A DNA stretch of 64,000 bases from Microcystis wesenbergii NRERC-220 (GTDB taxonomy: Bacteria; Cyanobacteriota; Cyanobacteriia; Cyanobacteriales; Microcystaceae). Of this stretch, positions 15,174 to 24,577 are shown piece after piece. The notes under the pieces were generated by a model. That model did no database searches, was not told where the DNA came from, and worked only from the letters and a program-made list of their open reading frames with translations. The stretch spans positions 2,617,501-2,681,500 of the forward strand of contig NZ_JAVSJA010000001.1 of NCBI RefSeq assembly GCF_032027425.1, written 5' to 3'. Position 1 is the first letter of the stretch, and each line of letters begins with the position of its first letter. The position numbers and the translations under genes are program-made.

Positions 15174-15203
15174 TGTAGGGCTAATTCCGGAATTAGCCCT
15201 ACA
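15174..15203. repeat. Perfect 30-bp palindrome (family P, variant 1)
   Basis: The half TGTAGGGCTAATTCC is followed directly by its exact complement with no spacer. It shares the architecture GTAGGGYTRATTC and centre NN with the palindromes at 22603-22630 and 36916-36943. Confidence 0.9.
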
Positions 15204-15215
15204 CCTATTACCTAG

Positions 15216-15397
15216 CTATATTCCACTAGCCCAGATTCCCTTGGTTTTATCTAATAAGGTTTCAAAATCCGCTTCTGTCCTTTCATCCTCAACCACTTGA
15301 ATGTTAATGGCTAACTTTGTTGCTGCTTCAAAGGGTAAGTTAGAGAGGATAATCTTTTGAGAATTTCAATAGTTAAATAGGTTTGATAGGTATTCAT
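15216..15397 (-). pseudogene. Small antitoxin-like gene with a one-base frameshift
   Basis: ATG at 15395-15397 opens MNTYQTYLTIEI. One base further on the frame changes and continues as KIILSNLPFEAATKLAINIQ, then VVEDERTEADFETLLDKTKG, ending IWASGI and TAG at 15216-15218. Restoring a single A near 15364 joins both parts into a 60-residue protein with the look of small antitoxins that precede PIN or RelE toxins. No toxin follows; the next sequence is the palindrome at 15174. The family is inferred only from size and style. A sequencing error would produce the same picture. Confidence 0.6.
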
Positions 15398-15766
15398 AAT
15401 TATTGACAAGCAGAAACTGTTGATTTAGGATAGAAAAGACAATTATAATACTTTTTGATAACCGATAACTGTTTCATTTTCATTGTCCTTAACAAAATTT
15501 AACACTACCTCAATTTTCTCAAAAAAATCGAGGTAATGTTAGGCGGGAAAGATAGAAGAGCAAAGGGTTAAAGTCTTGGGGAGACACAGGCAACCCGAAT
15601 GATAAAGGTGGTGCGTTACGGCGGATTGTTAATTTGAGTTTTTTGACCGAATTGATAGCCGCAAACACGCACCCTAGACTCTACTAAAAGTGGGAGTTTT
15701 TCAACCCAAATTTTCTGGTAAAATGATTGAGGATAATTGGCCAAAACTTTATGGGGATTTAAGCCT
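15398..15766. other. Gene-free stretch between TA remnants
   Basis: AT-rich sequence with one hairpin, AACACTACCTC near 15500 pairing with GAGGTAATGTT near 15531, and a GGCGGGAAAGA tail similar to that behind the FGE gene at 17228. Nothing else recognised. Confidence 0.5.
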
Positions 15767-16093
15767 GTGATCATCAAAGAGTTAGAAGAGCAACTTCTTG
15801 CCCTCAAACCTAGCGAAAAAGTGCAGGTAATCCAGTTACTCGCTCAAAGTCTTGGTGGTAATTGGCAGGGAATTGAGAAAACGCCTAAAGTTTGTGGTGG
15901 ACAAGCCTGCATTGCCAATACAAGAATTCCAGTTTGGGTGTTAGTAGAAGCTCGTCGTCTTGGTTATAGTGATGCTGATTTATTAACAAGTTATCCAACT
16001 ATTAAAGCTACGGATTTAGCCAATGCTTGGGTATATGCGGCGGCTCATGAAGATGAGATTGATTTACTCATTGAGCAGAATCAGGCAGTTTAG
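15767..16093 (+). CDS. DUF433 domain protein, orphan antitoxin-like
   Basis: From the GTG at 15767 (GGGGA about 12 nt upstream) this gives 108 residues. An earlier TTG at 15737 is in frame but unlikely. The first part (KELEEQLLALKPSEKVQVIQ) resembles the helical N-terminus of addiction-module regulators. The second half is DUF433: TPKVCGGQACIANTRIPVWV, LVEARRLGYSDADLLTSYP and ATDLANAWVYAAAHEDEID. DUF433 proteins usually precede a DUF5615 PIN-like toxin, as at 27247-27787. Here the toxin is absent and a MITE begins 7 nt downstream, so the antitoxin is orphaned. Confidence 0.8.
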   Translation: MIIKELEEQLLALKPSEKVQVIQLLAQSLGGNWQGIEKTPKVCGGQACIANTRIPVWVLVEARRLGYSDADLLTSYPTIKATDLANAWVYAAAHEDEIDLLIEQNQAV

Positions 16094-16099
16094 GGGATG

Positions 16100-16591: not shown

Positions 16592-17089
16592 TCAACCTCC
16601 TAACAGTTGGTTGGGTGTACAAAGAATCGGTAACTCGTATCCAAAATCAATGCTGATCTCTGCCAATTTTCTCTGAATTTGAGCATTAGCAATATGCTTA
16701 CAGTTCCACGTTAACAGATAATCCATACCGTGGACAGTTGCGGCGGCAATGTGGATCGCGTCAACTTTCGCTTTTGGAGGCAGATTACTGCGGGTTAAGA
16801 ATTGTTTAGCCAAACCTTGTGCAGCTTCGTTCAATGCTAACAAGGGAAAATCACGCAAAATATCCAGCCTTTCGGAGGCGATCGCTGTATCTCCTTTAGT
16901 TACTTCCTCTAGGACAGCCTCGGAAGTGTACAGAATAAAGTCGTTTCGACGAAATTCCCACCATTCCCTCGTTATCTCAATATTAGCCGCCACAATAATA
17001 TCTCTGCTGGGTCGAGCAGTTAGGTAGCCTAAGATACTGGTTTCAATATAGACGCTTTCGCTCACGGCAATAGGAGAAAATCTATCCAA
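16592..17089 (-). CDS. PIN domain protein, probable toxin
   Basis: A 165-residue PIN-fold nuclease. The first acidic residue is in VYIETSILGYLTARPS (E replacing the usual D), further acids are in SEAVLEEVTKGD, the third in AKVDAIHIAAATVHGMDYLL, and the last in TWNCKHIANA (N/D position). The four-acid pocket of PIN domains is thus recognisable. PIN toxins cleave RNA. It forms a two-gene unit with the downstream small gene, 2 nt apart. Slightly longer than VapC (about 130). Confidence 0.85.
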   Translation of the reverse strand: MDRFSPIAVSESVYIETSILGYLTARPSRDIIVAANIEITREWWEFRRNDFILYTSEAVLEEVTKGDTAIASERLDILRDFPLLALNEAAQGLAKQFLTRSNLPPKAKVDAIHIAAATVHGMDYLLTWNCKHIANAQIQRKLAEISIDFGYELPILCTPNQLLGG

Positions 17090-17201: not shown

Positions 17202-17233
17202 ATCTCAAAAAAATCGACCCGCCGCTAGGCGGG
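17202..17233 (-). terminator. Intrinsic terminator behind the kinase-FGE gene
   Basis: On the minus strand CCCGCC, loop TAGC and GGCGGG are followed by TCGATTTTTTTGAG. The hairpin is about 60 nt beyond the stop codon of the 1664-residue gene. It may also be the hairpin that follows many DGR target regions. Confidence 0.7.
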
Positions 17234-17292: not shown

Positions 17293-20200
17293 TTACAGAG
17301 TCCTCCCAGCACCGCACACCACCCGAAAACCGAAGTAGTTGACGATGTTGCCCCGGCGGTAGTTGAAGTTGCGGTAAGCGGAACGGCAGAGATTTGGAAG
17401 GCCGTACCAAGAACCGCCCCGCACTATTTGATAATCATTATCCTTTATCAGCCAAGCACTGCCGTCACTTGGCGCATTCTGATAGCTATTATGCCAATTG
17501 TCTTCGCACCACTCCCAGACATTTCCGTGCATATCGTAGAGGCCGAAAGCATTGGGCCTTTTCTGGCCCACAGGATGAGTTGTCTGCTGAGAATTTCCGC
17601 TATACCAAGCGTAATCTTCTAACTGATTAGCATCATCACCGAAATAATAGCGAGTAGTAGTCCCCGCACGACAGGCATATTCCCATTCCGCTTCTGTCGG
17701 TAGGCGATAGGTTTTCCCGGTTATTTGACTCAATTTCTGACAAAAGGCTTGAGCGTCATGCCAACTAACCATTTCTACCGGATTTTGGGGATTGTTTTTA
17801 AAATGAGAGGGATTTGTTCCCATTACTGCTTGATATTGTGCCTGAGTGACAGGATATTTCCCGATCGCAAAACTGTTTATTTTAACTGGGTGTTGAGGCT
17901 TTTCATAACTTGTAGCATCGGGATCACTATCAGGAGAACCCATGAGAAATTGACCTGCTGGTAAGCCTACCATTTCCAGTGTTATTCCCTTGGGTAGGTT
18001 TTCGGTAAAGTTTGTCAGTGGAGTTGGCACTACTTTAGGTAACGGTGTAGATGTCACAGTAGCGATAGGTAACTGTGTAGATGTCACAGTGGGGACGCAC
18101 ACCACCCGAAAACCGATGCTGAGGTTGAGGATATCGCCGTTGGAGCGATCGGTGGAACGGCAATACTCGGGAATGTCGTCCCAAGAGCCGCCACGTATTA
18201 TGTGAACATTACTATTATTTGTTACCCAGGCACTGCCGTCACTTGGCGCATTCTGATAGCTATTATGCCAATTGTCCTCGCACCACTCCCAAACATTGCC
18301 ACTCATGTCATAGAGTCCCCAAGCATTGGGCTTTTTCTGACCCACAGGATGAGTTGTATTTTGAGAATTTCCTTCATACCAAGCGTAATCTTCTAACTGA
18401 TTAGCATCATCACCGAAATAATAGCGAGTAGTAGTCCCCCCACGACAGGCATATTCCCATTCCGCTTCTGTGGGGAGACGATAGGTTTTCCCGGTTATTT
18501 GACTCAATTTCTGACAAAAGGCTTGAGCGTCGTCCGAACTAATCCTTTCTACTGGATTTTGGGGATTATTTGAAAAATGAGAGGGATTTGTTCCCATTAC
18601 TGCTTGATATTGTGCCTGAGTGACAGGATATTTCCCGATCGCAAAACTGTTTATTTTAACTGGGTGTTGAGGCTTTTCATAACTTGTAGCATCGGGATCA
18701 CTATCAGGAGAACCCATGAGAAATTGACCTGCTGGTAAGCCTACCATCTCCAGTGTTATTCCCTTGGGTAGGTTTTCGGTAAAGTTTGTCAGTGGAGTTG
18801 GCACTACTTTAGGTAACGGTGTAGATGTCACAGTAGCGATAGGTAACTGTGTAGATGTCACATTGGGGACGCACACCACCCGAAAACCGAGGATGAAGTA
18901 GTTGAGGTCGTAGCGGCGGACGTAGCTGTAGCGGAAAGCGGAACGGCAGTAATCCGGATTGAAGTACCAAGAACCGCCCCGCAGTATTTGATAATCATTA
19001 TCCCTTATCAGCCAAGCACTGCCATCCCTTGGCGCTCCGATATAGTTATCGTGCCAATTGTCTTCGCACCACTCCCAAACATTGCCACTCATGTCATAGA
19101 GTCCCCAACCATTGGGCCTTTTCTGGCCCACAGGATGAGTTGTCTGCTGAGAATTTCCGCCATACCAAGCGTAATCTCCTAACTGATTGGCATTATCACC
19201 GAAATAATAGCGAGTAGTTGTCCCTGCACGACAAGCATATTCCCATTCCGCTTCTGTCGGTAGGCGATAGGTTTTCCCGGTTATTTGACTCAATTTTTGG
19301 CAAAAGGCTTGAGCATCATTCCAACGAACCTTTTCTACCGGATTTTGGGGATTGTTTTTAAACCAAGAGGGATTGGTTCCCATTACTGCTTCATATTGTG
19401 CCTGAGTCACTGGATATTTCCCAATCGCAAAACTGTTGACTTTAACTTGGTGTTGAGGCTTTTCCGAATCCCTAGCATCGGGATCACTGTCAGGAGAACC
19501 CATGAGAAATTGACCTGCTGGTAAGCCTACCATCTCCAGTGTTATTCCCTTGGATATTTTTTCGGTAAATGGAGTTAGCTTTGCTGGGGGAGGTGGTGGC
19601 GAAGAGGGCGCTGGAGGCGCTACTTTAGGTGACGGTGTAGGTGTTACAGTAGCGACAGGTAACTGTGTAGATGTCACATTGGGGACGCACACCACCCGAA
19701 AACCGACGTAGTAGTAGTAGTCGCGGCGGAAGTAGGTGAAGTCGTAAGCGGAACGGCAGTAATTTGGAAAGTCGTACCAAGAACCGCCCCGCAGTATGTG
19801 ATAATCATTATCATTTGTCAGCCAAGCACTGCCATCCTTTGGCGCTCCGATATAGTTATTGTGCGAATTGTCTTCGCACCATTCCCAAACATTGCCACTC
19901 ATGTCATAGAGTCCCCAAGCATTGGGCCTTTTCTGGCCCACAGGATGAGTTTTATCCTGAGAATTTCCGTCATACCAAGCGTAATCTCCTAACTGATTAG
20001 CATCATCACCGAAATAAAAGCGAGTAGTAGTCCCCGCACGACAGGCATATTCCCATTCCGCTTCTGTCGGTAGGCGATAGGTTTTCCCGGTTATTTGACT
20101 CAATTTCTGACAAAAGGCTTGAGCATCATCCCAACTAACCTTTTCTACCGGATTTTGGGGATTGTTTTTAAACCAAGAGGGATTGGTTCCCATTACTGCT

Positions 20201-22287
20201 TCATATTGTGCCTGAGTCACTGGATATTTCCCAATCGCAAAACTGTTTATTTTAACTGGGTGTTGAGGCTTTTCATAACTTTTAGCATCGGGATCACTGT
20301 CAGGAGAGCCCATGAGAAATTGACCTGCTGGTAAGCCTACCATCTCCAGTGTTATTCCCTTGGATATTTTTTCGGTAAATGGAGTTAGCTTTGCTGGGGG
20401 AGGTGGTGGCGAAGAGGGCGCTGGAGGCGCTACTTTAGGTAACGGTGTAGATGTCACAGTAGCGATAGGTAACTGTGTAGATGTCACAGTGGGGACGCAC
20501 ACCACCCGAAAACCGTTGTTGTTGTAGTAGTTGTCGCGGCGATACGCAGAACGGCAGAAAGACGGATGGTCGGACCAAGAACCGCCCCGCACTATTTGAT
20601 CATTATCATTTGTCAGCCAAGCACTGCCATCCTTTGGCGCTCCGATATAGTTATCGTGCCAATCGTCTTCGCACCACTCCCAAACATTACCACTCATGTC
20701 ATACAATCCCCAAGCATTGGGCTTTTTCTGTCCAACAGGATGAGTTGTATCTTGAGAATTTCCGTTATACCAAGCATAATCTTCTAACTGATTAGCATCA
20801 TCACCAAAATAATAGCGAGTAGTTGTCCCTGCACGACAAGCATATTCCCATTCCGCTTCTGTCGGTAGGCGATAGGTTTTACCTGTTATTTGACTCAATT
20901 TTTGACAAAAAGCTTGAGCGTCGTCCCAGCTAACCTTTTCTACCGGATTTTGGGGATTGTTTTGAAACCGAGAGGGATTGTTTCCCATTACTGCTTCATA
21001 TTGCGCCTGAGTCACTGGATATTTCCCAATCGCAAAACTGTTGACTTTAACTTGGTGTTGAGGCTTTTCCGAATCCCTAGCATCGGGATCATTGTCAGGA
21101 GATCCCATGAGAAATTTACCTGCTGGTAAGCCTACCATCTCCAGTGTTATTCCCTTGGGTAGGTTTTCGGTAAATAGAGTTAGCTTTGCTGGGGGAGGTG
21201 GTGGCGAAGAGGGCGGTGGTGGCGATACTTTAGGTGACGGTGTAGATGTCACATTAGCGATACTTTTACCCGGAAAAATATCAAAATTTAAATCACTAGA
21301 TCGCTCACACCAATAACACTTTCCGTAACTGCGGTTGTAGTAATGATTATCAACTTTGCCACAGCGTATAACCTCTTTTAGTGCAGCTTCCAAAGTACCG
21401 CGCCATTCCTCAGCCGTCGGTCGTCTGTGGGGGAATTTATGTCCCTCATTGAAACAGCGCAAAAATAAGGCGTGTAAGTCGCGATGTAAAATATTTAATG
21501 GGATTGTTGTATTACTAGGTACAACCAATTTATCACCAGAAAAAGGCCAGAGTCCCCGTCGAATTAGTTCCGACTGTTCCAGGGAATCTCCTGCTCCTTG
21601 CCACAATCCCCGAAACGGCGGCCCGCTAAATAGTAGATAATAAATAACAACTCCTAATCGAAAGCGATCATGCACTTCTGTTTGATCTACATCTGCTATA
21701 TTCACTCCAATTAATTCCGCCGGTGTAAATCCTTCTGAGCCAACTAAACACCGATATATTTTACCGCTATAGGGATCTGATACTTGAAATGAATCTGTGT
21801 CAATAATTGTAGGTAATGCCCGATTATTTACTAAGATATTTTCTAGCTTGATGTCTCCCAAAACATAACCTTTAGCGTGAATTGCTTGGATAATAGCGGC
21901 TATATTCCGCGCTACTACATGAAGAAAATACCAATTAGCTTCTAACTTGTCTTGTCTTCTTAACTTGGGCGTACAAAGCTTTAATAATGTTTCTGAACCC
22001 ACCACTTCTGGCATTAAAAAACCAGCGACTTTTCCCTGGTTATCTTCCAAGATAGAATAGGGCCAAGCGAAGGAAATATGGTTAAGATGAGCATTAGGAT
22101 CCCCAGGACGATTTCTCACCATTAACTGTAATTTATCAACCCTTTCATTATGGGGATTGTGGTAGATTTTCGCTAAGTACCCATTAAAGTTAGTATGCCA
22201 TACTTTCGCCTCGCCACTGTTCGCCAATTCTTGCGTCAGGGTAATCAGGCGATTTTGTAGTTGACAGCGATAAGTTAAAGACATCAA
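17293..22287 (-). CDS. Protein kinase-like protein with five tandem FGE-sulfatase domains, candidate DGR target
   Basis: A 1664-residue protein. Residues 1-330 are a divergent protein kinase: lysine in YLAKIY (K40), catalytic loop LGDIKLENIL (D145), metal loop IIDTDSFQV. A CxxC (CYWC) and proline-rich linker (about 345-375) follow. Then five FGE-sulfatase (formylglycine-generating enzyme-like, C-type-lectin fold) domains at about 379-599, 644-870, 913-1140, 1175-1400 and 1433-1660. Each has MVGLPAG, GSPD, KYPVTQAQY, YRLPTEAEWEYACR, NVWEWCED, RGGSW and GFRVVC. The domains are nearly identical except for the segment between RGGSW and GFRVVC. Linkers are PTVTSTQLPIATVTSTPLPK type. Upstream lie PP2C and vWA genes, making a TerY-P-like signalling triad. 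No signal peptide is visible. The FGE domains are probably ligand-binding rather than catalytic. Confidence 0.92.
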   Translation of the reverse strand: MMSLTYRCQLQNRLITLTQELANSGEAKVWHTNFNGYLAKIYHNPHNERVDKLQLMVRNRPGDPNAHLNHISFAWPYSILEDNQGKVAGFLMPEVVGSETLLKLCTPKLRRQDKLEANWYFLHVVARNIAAIIQAIHAKGYVLGDIKLENILVNNRALPTIIDTDSFQVSDPYSGKIYRCLVGSEGFTPAELIGVNIADVDQTEVHDRFRLGVVIYYLLFSGPPFRGLWQGAGDSLEQSELIRRGLWPFSGDKLVVPSNTTIPLNILHRDLHALFLRCFNEGHKFPHRRPTAEEWRGTLEAALKEVIRCGKVDNHYYNRSYGKCYWCERSSDLNFDIFPGKSIANVTSTPSPKVSPPPPSSPPPPPAKLTLFTENLPKGITLEMVGLPAGKFLMGSPDNDPDARDSEKPQHQVKVNSFAIGKYPVTQAQYEAVMGNNPSRFQNNPQNPVEKVSWDDAQAFCQKLSQITGKTYRLPTEAEWEYACRAGTTTRYYFGDDANQLEDYAWYNGNSQDTTHPVGQKKPNAWGLYDMSGNVWEWCEDDWHDNYIGAPKDGSAWLTNDNDQIVRGGSWSDHPSFCRSAYRRDNYYNNNGFRVVCVPTVTSTQLPIATVTSTPLPKVAPPAPSSPPPPPAKLTPFTEKISKGITLEMVGLPAGQFLMGSPDSDPDAKSYEKPQHPVKINSFAIGKYPVTQAQYEAVMGTNPSWFKNNPQNPVEKVSWDDAQAFCQKLSQITGKTYRLPTEAEWEYACRAGTTTRFYFGDDANQLGDYAWYDGNSQDKTHPVGQKRPNAWGLYDMSGNVWEWCEDNSHNNYIGAPKDGSAWLTNDNDYHILRGGSWYDFPNYCRSAYDFTYFRRDYYYYVGFRVVCVPNVTSTQLPVATVTPTPSPKVAPPAPSSPPPPPAKLTPFTEKISKGITLEMVGLPAGQFLMGSPDSDPDARDSEKPQHQVKVNSFAIGKYPVTQAQYEAVMGTNPSWFKNNPQNPVEKVRWNDAQAFCQKLSQITGKTYRLPTEAEWEYACRAGTTTRYYFGDNANQLGDYAWYGGNSQQTTHPVGQKRPNGWGLYDMSGNVWEWCEDNWHDNYIGAPRDGSAWLIRDNDYQILRGGSWYFNPDYCRSAFRYSYVRRYDLNYFILGFRVVCVPNVTSTQLPIATVTSTPLPKVVPTPLTNFTENLPKGITLEMVGLPAGQFLMGSPDSDPDATSYEKPQHPVKINSFAIGKYPVTQAQYQAVMGTNPSHFSNNPQNPVERISSDDAQAFCQKLSQITGKTYRLPTEAEWEYACRGGTTTRYYFGDDANQLEDYAWYEGNSQNTTHPVGQKKPNAWGLYDMSGNVWEWCEDNWHNSYQNAPSDGSAWVTNNSNVHIIRGGSWDDIPEYCRSTDRSNGDILNLSIGFRVVCVPTVTSTQLPIATVTSTPLPKVVPTPLTNFTENLPKGITLEMVGLPAGQFLMGSPDSDPDATSYEKPQHPVKINSFAIGKYPVTQAQYQAVMGTNPSHFKNNPQNPVEMVSWHDAQAFCQKLSQITGKTYRLPTEAEWEYACRAGTTTRYYFGDDANQLEDYAWYSGNSQQTTHPVGQKRPNAFGLYDMHGNVWEWCEDNWHNSYQNAPSDGSAWLIKDNDYQIVRGGSWYGLPNLCRSAYRNFNYRRGNIVNYFGFRVVCGAGRTL
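17332..17406 (-). other. Candidate DGR variable region 5 (C-terminal FGE domain)
   Basis: 25 codons between TGG (RGGSW) and GGTTTTCGGGTGGTGTGC. Of these, 23 end in C or T (the exceptions are CCA and CGG), with TAC, AAC, TTC, ATC, GTC, GGC and CTC. This is expected when AAY codons of a template are mutated at adenines. It is followed by GGTGCTGGGAGGACTCTG and the stop codon, the position typical of a true DGR variable region at the 3' end of its gene. Confidence 0.75.
18115..18180 (-). other. Candidate DGR variable region 4
   Basis: 22 codons between TGG and GGTTTTCGGGTGGTGTGC, decoding DDIPEYCRSTDRSNGDILNL and so on, with nearly all codons ending in C or T. The surrounding FGE body is almost identical to that of domain 5, but this block is different and three codons shorter. 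Confidence 0.65.
18889..18966 (-). other. Candidate DGR variable region 3
   Basis: 26 codons, the longest of the five, with many TAC, TTC, ATC, CTC and GAC codons (YSYVRRYDLNYFIL) before GGTTTTCGGGTGGTGTGC. Confidence 0.65.
19705..19776 (-). other. Candidate DGR variable region 2
   Basis: 24 codons including a run of TAC codons (RRDYYYYV) before GGTTTTCGGGTGGTGTGC. Tyrosine TAC is one adenine substitution from AAC. Confidence 0.65.
20515..20574 (-). other. Candidate DGR variable region 1
   Basis: 20 codons ending GAC AAC TAC TAC AAC AAC AAC before GGTTTTCGGGTGGTGTGC. It is the least substituted block and may approximate the A-rich template repeat. Confidence 0.65.
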
Positions 22288-22679: not shown

Positions 22680-22913
22680 TCAATCAAATACTGGTTTGGC
22701 TGTGTCATCTTGAACGCGATCGAAGTCTGAATCGTTGCCAACGCTGGGAATCTGGCATAGCACCTCTGCTAGGGATTTTCGTTGCGGTTGCAGCAAGGCT
22801 TTTTCTAAGATTTGGCGGTGTTCGGCTTCGGCACTGATCCCGTGTTGGCTGGCTCGCTTTTTGAGAGCTTTGACGATGGCTTCATCGATATTGCGGACGA
22901 TTAAATCTGCCAT
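22680..22913 (-). CDS. FitA-like ribbon-helix-helix antitoxin, orphan
   Basis: A 77-residue protein from the ATG at 22911-22913: MADLIVRNIDEAIVKALKKR, then ASQHGISAEAEHRQILEKAL. This is the Arc/FitA-type ribbon-helix-helix with the beta strand LIVRNID and the characteristic AEAEHRQILE. The C-terminus (NDSDFDRVQDDTAKPVFD) would wrap a FitB-type PIN toxin. No toxin gene follows; the stop is succeeded by MITE D. The reading frame is open upstream to 23120 and fuses it in frame to a BrnA-like segment. Whether the long or short form is made is undecided. Confidence 0.8.
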   Translation of the reverse strand: MADLIVRNIDEAIVKALKKRASQHGISAEAEHRQILEKALLQPQRKSLAEVLCQIPSVGNDSDFDRVQDDTAKPVFD

Positions 22914-23066
22914 AGGTTGTATAGTTAATTGCTGCTTTGATGGCGAAAAAGATACTGTTTCTTGGGTAAAGAATTCATCACCTAACGGCGGAATATCAGA
23001 ATAATCGATATTCTCATCCGTCATCGCATCAATTCTCTTCAAGTCGCTTTTGATAGATTTTTTGCT
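22914..23066 (-). pseudogene. BrnA-like antitoxin remnant
   Basis: In frame with the FitA-like gene lies IVSKKSIKSDLKRIDAMTDE, then NIDYSDIPPLGDEFFTQETV and SFSPSKQQLTIQP. This is the N-terminal two thirds of a BrnA antitoxin (typically ending in a ribbon-helix-helix after KQQLTIRLD). The DNA-binding part is missing and replaced by the start of the FitA-like gene. No BrnT toxin is nearby. It begins inside a hairpin repeat (23099-23131) that supplies MFDKPSFW in the longest frame. Confidence 0.65.
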
Positions 23067-23098
23067 CACGATTGTTTTACCTGGGAACGCTATGATCC

Positions 23099-23131
23099 AG
23101 AAACTGGGTTTGTCAAACAAACCCGGTTTCT
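23099..23131. repeat. Hairpin repeat, divergent member of family H
   Basis: Arms AGAAACTGGGTTTGT and ACAAACCCGGTTTCT around CAA. Same 15-3-15 layout as the AGAAAACGGGTTTCT hairpins at 32.1-34.3 kb, with paired changes. Confidence 0.75.
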
Positions 23132-23139
23132 TAAACCCC

Positions 23140-23898
23140 TCAGTTTCTTAAACAAAAAGCTAGGAGTAAGGTTTTATCATCGGTTGTTAACTTATTTAAA
23201 TCCTCCCGCTCTAAAAATTCTTTGAGATCTTCCTGCAATGGCGTTTCTGTCTGTTGTAAATATTCCTCTAATGGCTGAAAAAAAGGCGGAAAAGGCTGCC
23301 AATTTTTATAATCGATCGATACCTTTTCCACTCCATCTGTCGCCACACAAATAAAGGCAACTGGCTCGGTTAAAACTTTTATTTGCATATCCTCCAAAGC
23401 ATTACTAGAAATAACAAAAGTGGTTTCATTGATGTATTCCCCCTTGTCAGGCTGCAACAATAACTGATAATTTCCACCCAGAGGTTTGAAGACAATAAAA
23501 CCATCTCCTATCTGCATCGCCGCTAACCGTTTTGAAGTAACCAAAACAACCAGTAAAGTTGTCGCTAGATCATTAATGTCTAACTGTTCTTTTTCGGTTT
23601 CTTCTTGGAGAATTTGCTGAACATAAGCCAACAGTCGCCGGAATATTTCCTCTAATTCTGCTTCAGTTTCAGTTGCCGCAAATGCTGTTTTTTTGAGATT
23701 TTCCTCTAAAAATTGCAGCGCTGCTTTAACTGTTATTTTCGCACCCAAATCCGAACGTTTGGCACTACCGGCCCCATCGGCCACGGCTCCAATCAAAACA
23801 TCCTGACCCAATAATTTATAAGCAGCATAATCTTGACAGGGTAATCCCCCTTGCACATGAAAACTACCGATTACCGATTGACACAACGTTCTCCACAT
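23140..23898 (-). CDS. PP2C-type serine/threonine phosphatase
   Basis: A 252-residue single-domain PP2C-like phosphatase. Metal-binding motifs are VQGGLPCQDYAAYKLLG (first Asp) and GAVADGAGSAKRSDLGAK (DGAG in place of DGMGG). A central region has LATTLLVVLVTSKRLAAMQI and GDGFIVF, and the last Asp is in FICVATDGVEKV. This shorter, PP2C_2 or TerY-P-type form is usually encoded with a vWA protein and a kinase. It lies 13 nt after the vWA gene and upstream of the kinase-FGE gene, separated from it by the inserted antitoxin and MITEs. It would reverse phosphorylation by the neighbouring kinase. Confidence 0.88.
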   Translation of the reverse strand: MWRTLCQSVIGSFHVQGGLPCQDYAAYKLLGQDVLIGAVADGAGSAKRSDLGAKITVKAALQFLEENLKKTAFAATETEAELEEIFRRLLAYVQQILQEETEKEQLDINDLATTLLVVLVTSKRLAAMQIGDGFIVFKPLGGNYQLLLQPDKGEYINETTFVISSNALEDMQIKVLTEPVAFICVATDGVEKVSIDYKNWQPFPPFFQPLEEYLQQTETPLQEDLKEFLEREDLNKLTTDDKTLLLAFCLRN

Positions 23899-23911: not shown

Positions 23912-24577
23912 CTAGGTGGTAATTTGTCCCCAATTCACTGGTGGTAAATCGATCGCCTCTCCAATTTTACCACCAGAAACTCGTTTCATTGAGTTACTTA
24001 ACCACTGAAATAAATCCCGAAAATCTAACCCATTGAGTAACACGGGGGGATTATTAGAAATCTGTTTGAGCTTCTCCATATCGGCCCCCTGAACACCTAC
24101 AGAAAAAAATAAAACCCGATTTTCTGCTTCTCCTTGTTTTACCCGTTGCGCCGCCAGATTCCATTGATCCGTAGGCGCACCATCAGTAATTAAAAATATC
24201 CAGGGACGATAATATTGGATACCATAACTTTTATAAATCGCCTTACGATCTTCGATTAAATCTAAAGCCAATTCAATCGCTTCTCCCATGGGGGTTAAGT
24301 CTCCTGCGGTTAAAGTCGGTGGCGTAAATTGGTCAATCCCGACAAAATCTTGCACGGTTTTAACCCCTCCATTACCAAAGGTGACAATGGCGGTTTCTAC
24401 ACTCAACGTCGCTTGGGTATCCCGCATCACATCCTGCTGAAAGGTTTTGATACCATGATTGAGAGCCTTAATCGGTTCCCCTGACATTGAACCAGAGGTA
24501 TCCAGTAGTAATACCACAGGACAGCGATTTTCCTGATTTTCGACAAATTCAGCCACACCAATCGGCATTTTTTGCAA
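23912..24577 (-). CDS. TerY-like von Willebrand factor A domain protein
   Basis: A 221-residue vWA protein. The metal-ion-dependent adhesion site is complete: DTSGSMSG (about 26-33), a central Thr in LTAGDLTPMGEAI, and ITDGAPTD. The length and the features KALNHGIKTFQQDVMRDTQA and NRVLFFSVGVQGADMEKLKQ are typical of TerY proteins. These join PP2C phosphatases and kinases in stress- or phage-related TerY-P triads. It is the first gene of the triad on the minus strand, 13 nt before the phosphatase. Confidence 0.9.
   Translation of the reverse strand: MQKMPIGVAEFVENQENRCPVVLLLDTSGSMSGEPIKALNHGIKTFQQDVMRDTQATLSVETAIVTFGNGGVKTVQDFVGIDQFTPPTLTAGDLTPMGEAIELALDLIEDRKAIYKSYGIQYYRPWIFLITDGAPTDQWNLAAQRVKQGEAENRVLFFSVGVQGADMEKLKQISNNPPVLLNGLDFRDLFQWLSNSMKRVSGGKIGEAIDLPPVNWGQITT

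Follow-up and report, generated by a model that had tools for sequence, protein, structure and literature searches.

The bloom-forming cyanobacterium Microcystis wesenbergii NRERC-220 encodes a kinase-like protein with a row of FGE domains, each of which contains a short variable block (VR). Were these VRs written by a DGR, and are they still being rewritten? We analyzed the 64,000 nucleotides of DNA that contain the gene (the window), the genome that they come from (G000), and related sites across 12 Microcystis genomes.

Five variable blocks in one kinase gene

The open reading frame encodes 1,664 amino acids, counted from the listed TTG start (the start codon is uncertain). Pfam matched it to Pkinase (35.4 bits; the cut-off is 31.7) and found five FGE-sulfatase stretches (PF03781). 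To describe the VRs, we compared each of them to the best of five templates, using codon-level alignments and symmetric scoring, and we counted the changed sites separately for template adenines (A) and for other template bases (non-A). The features are:

17293-22287, minus strand: kinase-like domain and five tandem FGE domains (C-type-lectin fold), from Pfam
21268-22287, minus strand: N-terminal kinase-like part (Pkinase, 35.4 bits), used as the query for orthologs
20497-21174, minus strand: FGE domain 1, internal
19687-20379, minus strand: FGE domain 2, internal
18871-19569, minus strand: FGE domain 3, internal
18097-18786, minus strand: FGE domain 4, internal
17296-18012, minus strand: FGE domain 5, C-terminal, matches PDB 2y3c
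20515-20574, minus strand: VR1, 20 codons; A 10/24, non-A 3/45 changed; 5 codons shorter than the NIES-2481 plasmid template
19705-19776, minus strand: VR2, 24 codons; A 16/30, non-A 2/51 changed; same DNA in strain G078
18889-18966, minus strand: VR3, 26 codons; A 18/32, non-A 1/52 changed
18115-18180, minus strand: VR4, 22 codons; A 12/26, non-A 12/49 changed with the best template; no fit to the five templates
17332-17406, minus strand: VR5, terminal, 25 codons; A 16/32, non-A 1/52 changed; same DNA, but internal, in G078
23140-23898, minus strand: PP2C phosphatase gene of the triad
23912-24577, minus strand: vWA gene of the triad

An earlier note on this DNA had described a kinase-like protein with five FGE domains and one variable block in each, and both Pfam and our recomputed coordinates agree. 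The blocks lie between RGGSW and GFRVVC, exactly where the note had placed them. Its observation about codons also stands: 110 of the 117 codons in the blocks end in C or T, as compared to 803 of the 1,548 codons in the rest of the reading frame (Fisher, 4e-22). In an ungapped comparison of the 468 nt upstream of the blocks, domains 2 to 5 are 86-95% identical to each other; domain 1 was left out of this range because an indel offsets the comparison.

The domains that carry the VRs belong to the FGE fold by sequence, both from Pfam (PF03781) and from similarity to PDB 2y3c. This structure is Treponema denticola variable protein 1, known as TvpA. It matches FGE domain 5 at E = 1.8e-35, and the VR lies within the matched query residues 96-233. 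AlphaFold2 gave a poor model of this domain (mean pLDDT of 52.7, and under 50 over almost the whole VR), so it was not used for a fold search and the assignment rests on sequence.

The PP2C and vWA genes are upstream of the kinase gene on the same strand, and the three genes make up a vWA-PP2C-kinase triad. (TerY is a name for this triad, but we found no paper under that name and we base no claim on it.) A gene for a FitA-like RHH antitoxin lies between the PP2C and kinase genes, at 22680-23120 of the window, and a PIN-domain gene lies just 3' of the array, at 16592-17089. Across seven neighboring reading frames, Pfam identified PIN, FitA-like RHH, PP2C, vWA, thioredoxin, NnrU, and a weak transposase match; it found no MoxR ATPase, and judging from these seven frames the locus does not look like a VMAP ternary conflict system (MoxR, vWA, VMAP).

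Related kinases are found in 17 loci from outside Microcystis, with vWA in 16 and PP2C in 15 of the 17. The window locus thus has the same gene set as other cyanobacterial vWA-PP2C-kinase triads, but a search with FGE domain 5 against the DNA of the 17 loci gave no match (at E = 1e-8), and in this comparison the FGE array was seen only in Microcystis. The array is probably a multi-ligand sensor that would control the kinase. For related targets, antigen sensing (PMC10907252) and regulatory tuning (PMC7517822) are proposed in the excerpts of those papers that we draw on.

Templates in other strains and none found in the genome

Across the five VRs, 72 of 144 template-A sites were changed, versus 19 of 249 other sites (Fisher, 2.5e-21). 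If VR4 is set aside, the counts are 60/118 and 7/200, with the NIES-2481 plasmid template. Third codon positions were seldom altered, except in VR1 and VR4. When we had only four templates, the VRs repeated the same non-A differences (31/255 over five VRs), so we expected that a slightly different template would exist. A fifth template cleared most of these recurrent mismatches (from 31/255 to 19/249). It is from plasmid p1 of Microcystis aeruginosa NIES-2481, where the reading frame beside it encodes an RT with the 5' part missing.

With this other strain's template, four of the five VRs show the differences expected of a DGR target, almost all of them at adenines. VR4 does not: 12 of its 49 non-A sites differ from the best of the five templates. 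Because of the template-A-specific differences, the FGE fold related to 2y3c, and a matching homing anchor (see below), we consider a DGR origin for the target to be strongly supported. The earlier note had inferred that all five blocks are or were diversified and had proposed to test whether the differences fall on template adenines; nearly all of them do so in four blocks, and block 4 fits none of the five templates.

To see how general this pattern is, we collected 104 sites from 12 Microcystis genomes, comprising 100 VRs (ten of them from G000) and 4 templates. Among the 100 VRs, 1,622 of 3,048 template-A sites were changed (53%), versus 120 of 5,181 other sites (2.3%); 42 VRs had no non-A changes and 90 had at most two. 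Because the sites were gathered by template similarity and fixed anchors, these counts are biased towards good matches, and 13 of 115 hits were missed. (The 115 hits lack two of the captured sites, namely the window's VR4 and the first G078 block.) Four of the missed sites were measured separately and had a higher rate of non-A changes (A 63/122, non-A 21/211). The nine unmeasured ones include seven with SFRV instead of GFRV or with another fixed letter absent, as well as G005:C1:683310, which is frame-shifted inside the block, and a remnant in G000 near 768 kb. This remnant and a degenerate block near 4.462 Mb are the two G000 sites outside of the set. At the loci of captured sites, the distance from the 5' anchor to the 3' anchor was divisible by three in 95 of 95 cases; two sites have no 5' anchor.

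Four of the 12 genomes (G002, G005, G006, and G010) contain intact DGR RTs with adjacent A-rich templates, and in G006 and G002 there are cassettes of target, Avd, RT, and template. The gene beside the RT of G006 is Avd (NF033474, 131 bits; the cut-off is 80). Templates and RTs are found on plasmids of strains FD4 and NIES-2481. The DGR of the M. aeruginosa FD4 plasmid p1FD4 has two avd genes, and genes for a MoxR ATPase, a TIR protein, and a SAV_2336-related protein lie near its RT on the same plasmid.

The genome with the five-VR kinase is 4.68 Mb in two contigs and is estimated to be 100% complete. It has four matches to RVT_1, namely two group II intron RTs (336 and 335 bits; NCBIfam cut-off of 300) and two group II fragments, and where these proteins could be aligned to a DGR RT, they were 28-33% identical. 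Since all of the RVT_1 matches are group II, we found no DGR RT in G000. Nor did we find Avd (no match with E up to 0.01) or a template repeat (the template core is absent even with up to 3 mismatches). A 1,681-base stretch of the G006 cassette that spans Avd, RT, and template matches G000 and G078, a strain of the same species, solely in the VR/template segment, and we found no DGR RT in either of these genomes. The earlier note had called for a search of the genome for a DGR RT and for the template, and had listed the lack of any template repeat among the outcomes that would count against its reading; only group II RTs and fragments turned up, and no template. We reject an active DGR within this genome, as no DGR RT, Avd, or template was found. 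Most likely, the target is an orphaned remote DGR target without machinery in its genome.

Other VRs in G000 fit the known templates closely. Two targets fit the FD4 plasmid template (0/56 non-A changes each), two fit the NIES-2481 template (0/52 each), and one fits the template of G002 (1/50). So VRs of three template families coexist in this genome, with none of the templates found there. Among distinct VRs, the non-A changes were 36/1343 in the RT-bearing genomes (26 VRs) and 75/3088 in the eight other genomes (60 VRs; p = 0.88), so we saw no decay of the captured VRs after RT loss. The equal decay with and without an RT implies that RT loss was recent or that the machines or targets move between cells.

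G000 also has a second kinase gene, with two FGE domains (L153, C1:4459000-4465000). Of its two VRs, the first is degenerate, with SSCW in place of GGSW (A 18/30, non-A 7/51), and the second fits the G002 template. Another VR, GYNP[NT]YCRSAIRYDYYFRRVNRINNY, is nearly unchanged in 8 of 12 Microcystis genomes, with 3' anchors that differ; in G000 it is on a TIR-FGE protein (C1:45025, L149). This VR was apparently written by a DGR and then fixed across the genus.

Probable freezing of blocks, probable shuffling of domains, and the end of the array

The earlier note had suggested comparing the blocks between strains. In the same-species strain G078, VR2 and VR5 have identical DNA, and VR1, VR3, and VR4 have no counterpart; G078 is a draft of 250 contigs, in which the kinase gene is split over contigs and the array is not fully resolved. 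The identity extends another 372 nt upstream of VR2. For VR5, the identical DNA covers 196 nt on the upstream side and 19 nt on the downstream side; past this point, at the anchor, the two strains differ, since the block is terminal in G000 but internal in G078. Of the VRs in other targets of G000, two are found unchanged in G078 and another has a single-base difference; for the two remaining remote targets, G078 has no identical VR. On its vWA-PP2C side, the locus has 96.7% identity between the two strains over 2,922 nt, so the shared VRs are no more variable than ordinary genes. The earlier note had written of an evolvable sensor array in the present tense. The present tense is not supported: we found no machinery in the genome, two VRs are identical in another strain, four blocks have no downstream hairpin (see below), and one block fits none of the templates.

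The kinase has an ortholog, or a fragment of one, in 8 of the 12 genomes. There are five FGE domains in G000 and G078, two in G007 and G009, and one in G002; the array is broken in G008 and is cut by a contig end in G004. By sequence comparison, the frameworks of the FGE domains look like mosaics. (Framework identities near 30% in that comparison are an artefact of ungapped offsets and were disregarded.) An extra copy of VR2 at G078:C77:46175 (L205) ends in a truncated linker, and its contig also matches 15175-15531 and 15683-16099 of the window, which suggests that the array of G078 is rearranged or misassembled at this point. Two pairs of sites (G000:C1:1069604 with G078:C126:64263, and G000:C1:45025 with G078:C83:33429) have the same or nearly the same VR but different families of downstream anchors, as if the anchors had been exchanged right at the end of the VR.

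The last block of the array differs from the others in what follows it:

17296-17331, minus strand: extended homing anchor (IMH-like), with 28 nt common to the G006 and NIES-2481 templates
17211-17233, minus strand: GC-rich hairpin CCCGCC-TAGC-GGCGGG plus TCGATTT, 98 nt downstream of where the VR5 anchor starts

The extended anchor GGTTTTCGGGTGGTGTGCGGTGCTGGGAGGACT is present at the C-terminal block (17332-17406) alone. This block runs on into the extended anchor GGTGCTGGGAGGACT and then a stop codon, while the other four blocks run into a proline-rich linker. The earlier note had every block ending in one shared 3' anchor; the four internal blocks do share 18-19 nt of it, but the extended anchor is restricted to the C-terminal block.

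The hairpin pattern CCCGCC-N(3-6)-GCGGGTCGATTT occurs four times in G000, each time 3' of a terminal VR; the other two of this genome's six terminal VRs have no such pattern. Across the genus set, we looked within 160 nt downstream of the VRs for GC-rich hairpins with stems of 6 bp or more. Terminal VRs had one in 48 of 87 cases, leaving 39 without, and internal VRs in 0 of 13; these counts are not independent, as the tails are homologous. As controls, we found such hairpins after 1 of 4 templates and 2 of 39 other reading frames of the window, and in 56 of 2,000 random 140-mers. In 41 of the 87 terminal VRs, a similar hairpin starts 70-102 nt past the start of the anchor. For BPP-1, the part of PMC3240598 that we draw on reports that efficient homing requires a 24-bp stretch with such repeats directly downstream. 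The hairpin in the window is farther away than that of BPP-1 and is followed by T residues, and it may be a terminator. As far as the sequences go, the terminal VR has both an IMH-like anchor and a hairpin, while the internal VRs have an anchor of 18-19 nt and no hairpin.

Four of 12 distinct internal VRs are also found at the end of a gene elsewhere, one of them in a truncated copy. Terminal-type anchors fused to the linker are found in internal domains of G002 and G009 (in two-domain genes of a second type) and in the first domain of G078. In the YDYPNL pair, the anchor of the terminal copy belongs to that copy's own template family. This suggests the terminal position as the older state. 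We also considered a gradient of degeneration along the array, with older VRs inside, and rejected it: the order is not monotonic, and non-A mismatches did not differ significantly between internal and terminal VRs (means of 2.08 and 1.16, p = 0.12).

VRs of this type are found in phages as well. The Microcystis myophages Ma-LMM01, MaMV-CH01, and MaMV-DC have FGE genes whose VRs are of the DGR type and whose anchors are of the host type. In Ma-LMM01, the VR of gp062 (L273, NC_008562 41679-42509) fits the template of the FD4 plasmid, with 18/28 A and 3/56 non-A sites changed, and those of MaMV-CH01 (L274) and MaMV-DC (L275) fit it less well (16/28, 7/56). The exact 28-nt host anchor is present in nine IMG/VR contigs (L264-L272); ten reading frames were scanned from one of these, and all match PHROGs, three at over 500 bits. 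Possible roles of the phage FGE genes are captured sensor modules, decoys, or shuttles for VRs. As carriers of the RT, both kinds of viral sequence were rejected: viral contigs gave only two relatives, at 34-36% identity, and 129 phage records had an RT match, all under 60% identity.

Explanations, precedents, and meaning

We think it quite probable that the gene is an orphaned remote target whose VRs were mostly written by a DGR, are now fixed, and have been recombined between positions and genes. A triad kinase would have gained the tandem FGE array within the Microcystis lineage. Judging from the substitution pattern, at least four of the five VRs are copies of adenine-mutagenized cDNA from a template of the NIES-2481 plasmid type. 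We take the VRs to be fixed because no template, DGR RT, or Avd was found in the genome, and the two VRs that are identical in the same-species strain support this. Present variation would arise as homologous recombination carries whole FGE modules from one position or gene to another, which is supported by VRs found at the terminal position in one strain but at an internal one elsewhere. Most likely, the writing took place at the 3'-terminal domain, with its long anchor and hairpin, and the internal copies would be older terminal ones. With such an array, one kinase could probably respond to several ligands.

The main challenge to fixed VRs is that itinerant plasmid DGRs might rewrite resident targets in trans, with the isolate or its assembly presently lacking the plasmid. 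We regard this as a serious idea, if not the one we favor. Templates and RTs are on plasmids in FD4 and NIES-2481 (the RT of the latter lacks its 5' part); only 4 of 12 genomes have intact RTs, yet VRs are no more decayed in the others (75/3088 versus 36/1343); and VRs in G000 fit three template families, with two of the FD4 type showing 0/56 non-A changes each. But the horizontal spread of target genes would give the same pattern, identical VRs occur in different strains, and no DGR RT was found in either same-species genome. That a trans-acting DGR is currently diversifying all five VRs in place seems very improbable to us. All five blocks do have at least 18 nt of anchor in common, two internal VRs (from G007 and G008) match a known template with 0 non-A mismatches (so internal VRs can look fresh), and for Thiohalocapsa the excerpts of PMC10907252 report both activity in trans and targets with three VRs. 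However, such a DGR would have to act without any RT, Avd, or template that we could find in G000, on an array in which two of five VRs are identical between strains, and at internal copies none of which (0/13) has a hairpin, the type of element that BPP-1 needs according to the same part of PMC3240598.

We give almost no credence to the idea that no DGR was involved and that ordinary diversifying selection and recombination shaped a surface loop of the FGE domain. The mosaic frameworks do indicate that recombination acts, and VR4 has many non-A changes. But about half of the template-A sites differ, versus 2-4% of other sites; third positions are rarely changed outside of VR1 and VR4; and the genus has genuine templates accompanied by RT and Avd. 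The template comparison refutes this idea for four blocks, and it is possible for VR4. Returning to the orphaned target, its history might have been that of an archive, in which the 3'-terminal FGE domain is the only one that a DGR writes, recombination appends a new writable domain, and older variants are stored read-only, while plasmid DGRs rewrite residents in passing and phages carry captured VR modules of the same families. We offer this only tentatively and consider it rather unlikely as a whole.

Several of these elements have precedents. In the excerpts considered here, Vallota-Eastman et al. 2020 (PMC7517822) describe kinase-CLec variable proteins of cyanobacterial DGRs, and the window gene resembles these in the fusion of an FGE/CLec module with a VR to a Ser/Thr-kinase-like domain and in its dispersed "remote" paralogs. 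One of the published paralogs has remnant TR-VR homology and is far from an RT. In those excerpts, the remote matches are exclusively near the 3' ends of genes, whereas four of the five VRs of the window gene are internal; and unlike those systems, the window genome has no DGR machinery that we could find. Similarly, the excerpts of Dore et al. 2024 (PMC10907252) describe DGR4 and DGR5 of Thiohalocapsa PB-PSB1, which have tandem three-CLec targets. These targets also have several VR-bearing CLec domains each, and diversification in trans is a feature of Thiohalocapsa. But they are fused to vWA, are part of VMAP ternary systems, and have DGR RTs in the genome, while the window gene has five VRs on a triad kinase and is orphaned. 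The T. denticola protein (2y3c; solved chain of 294 residues) has neither a kinase nor a five-fold array.

According to these two papers (PMC7517822 and PMC10907252), kinase-CLec and remote targets have already been published, as have activity in trans and targets with three VRs. The new aspects are the five VRs, the orphaning, and the archive-like arrays. Our literature search (most subscription papers were outside its scope) turned up no paper that treats this array, the archive idea, or DGR targets of Microcystis that are orphaned.

DGR targets are usually studied beside an active machine, and Microcystis has targets without one. With 100 VRs, and intact machines in 4 of 12 genomes, the freezing, stacking, and exchange of hypermutated sensors become testable. 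The five-VR kinase, along with the phage genes that have the same type of VR, are experimental objects for asking what the DGR targets of cyanobacteria sense. If sensors are indeed frozen, stacked, and exchanged, then this would be a form of heritable storage of sensor variants in bacteria.
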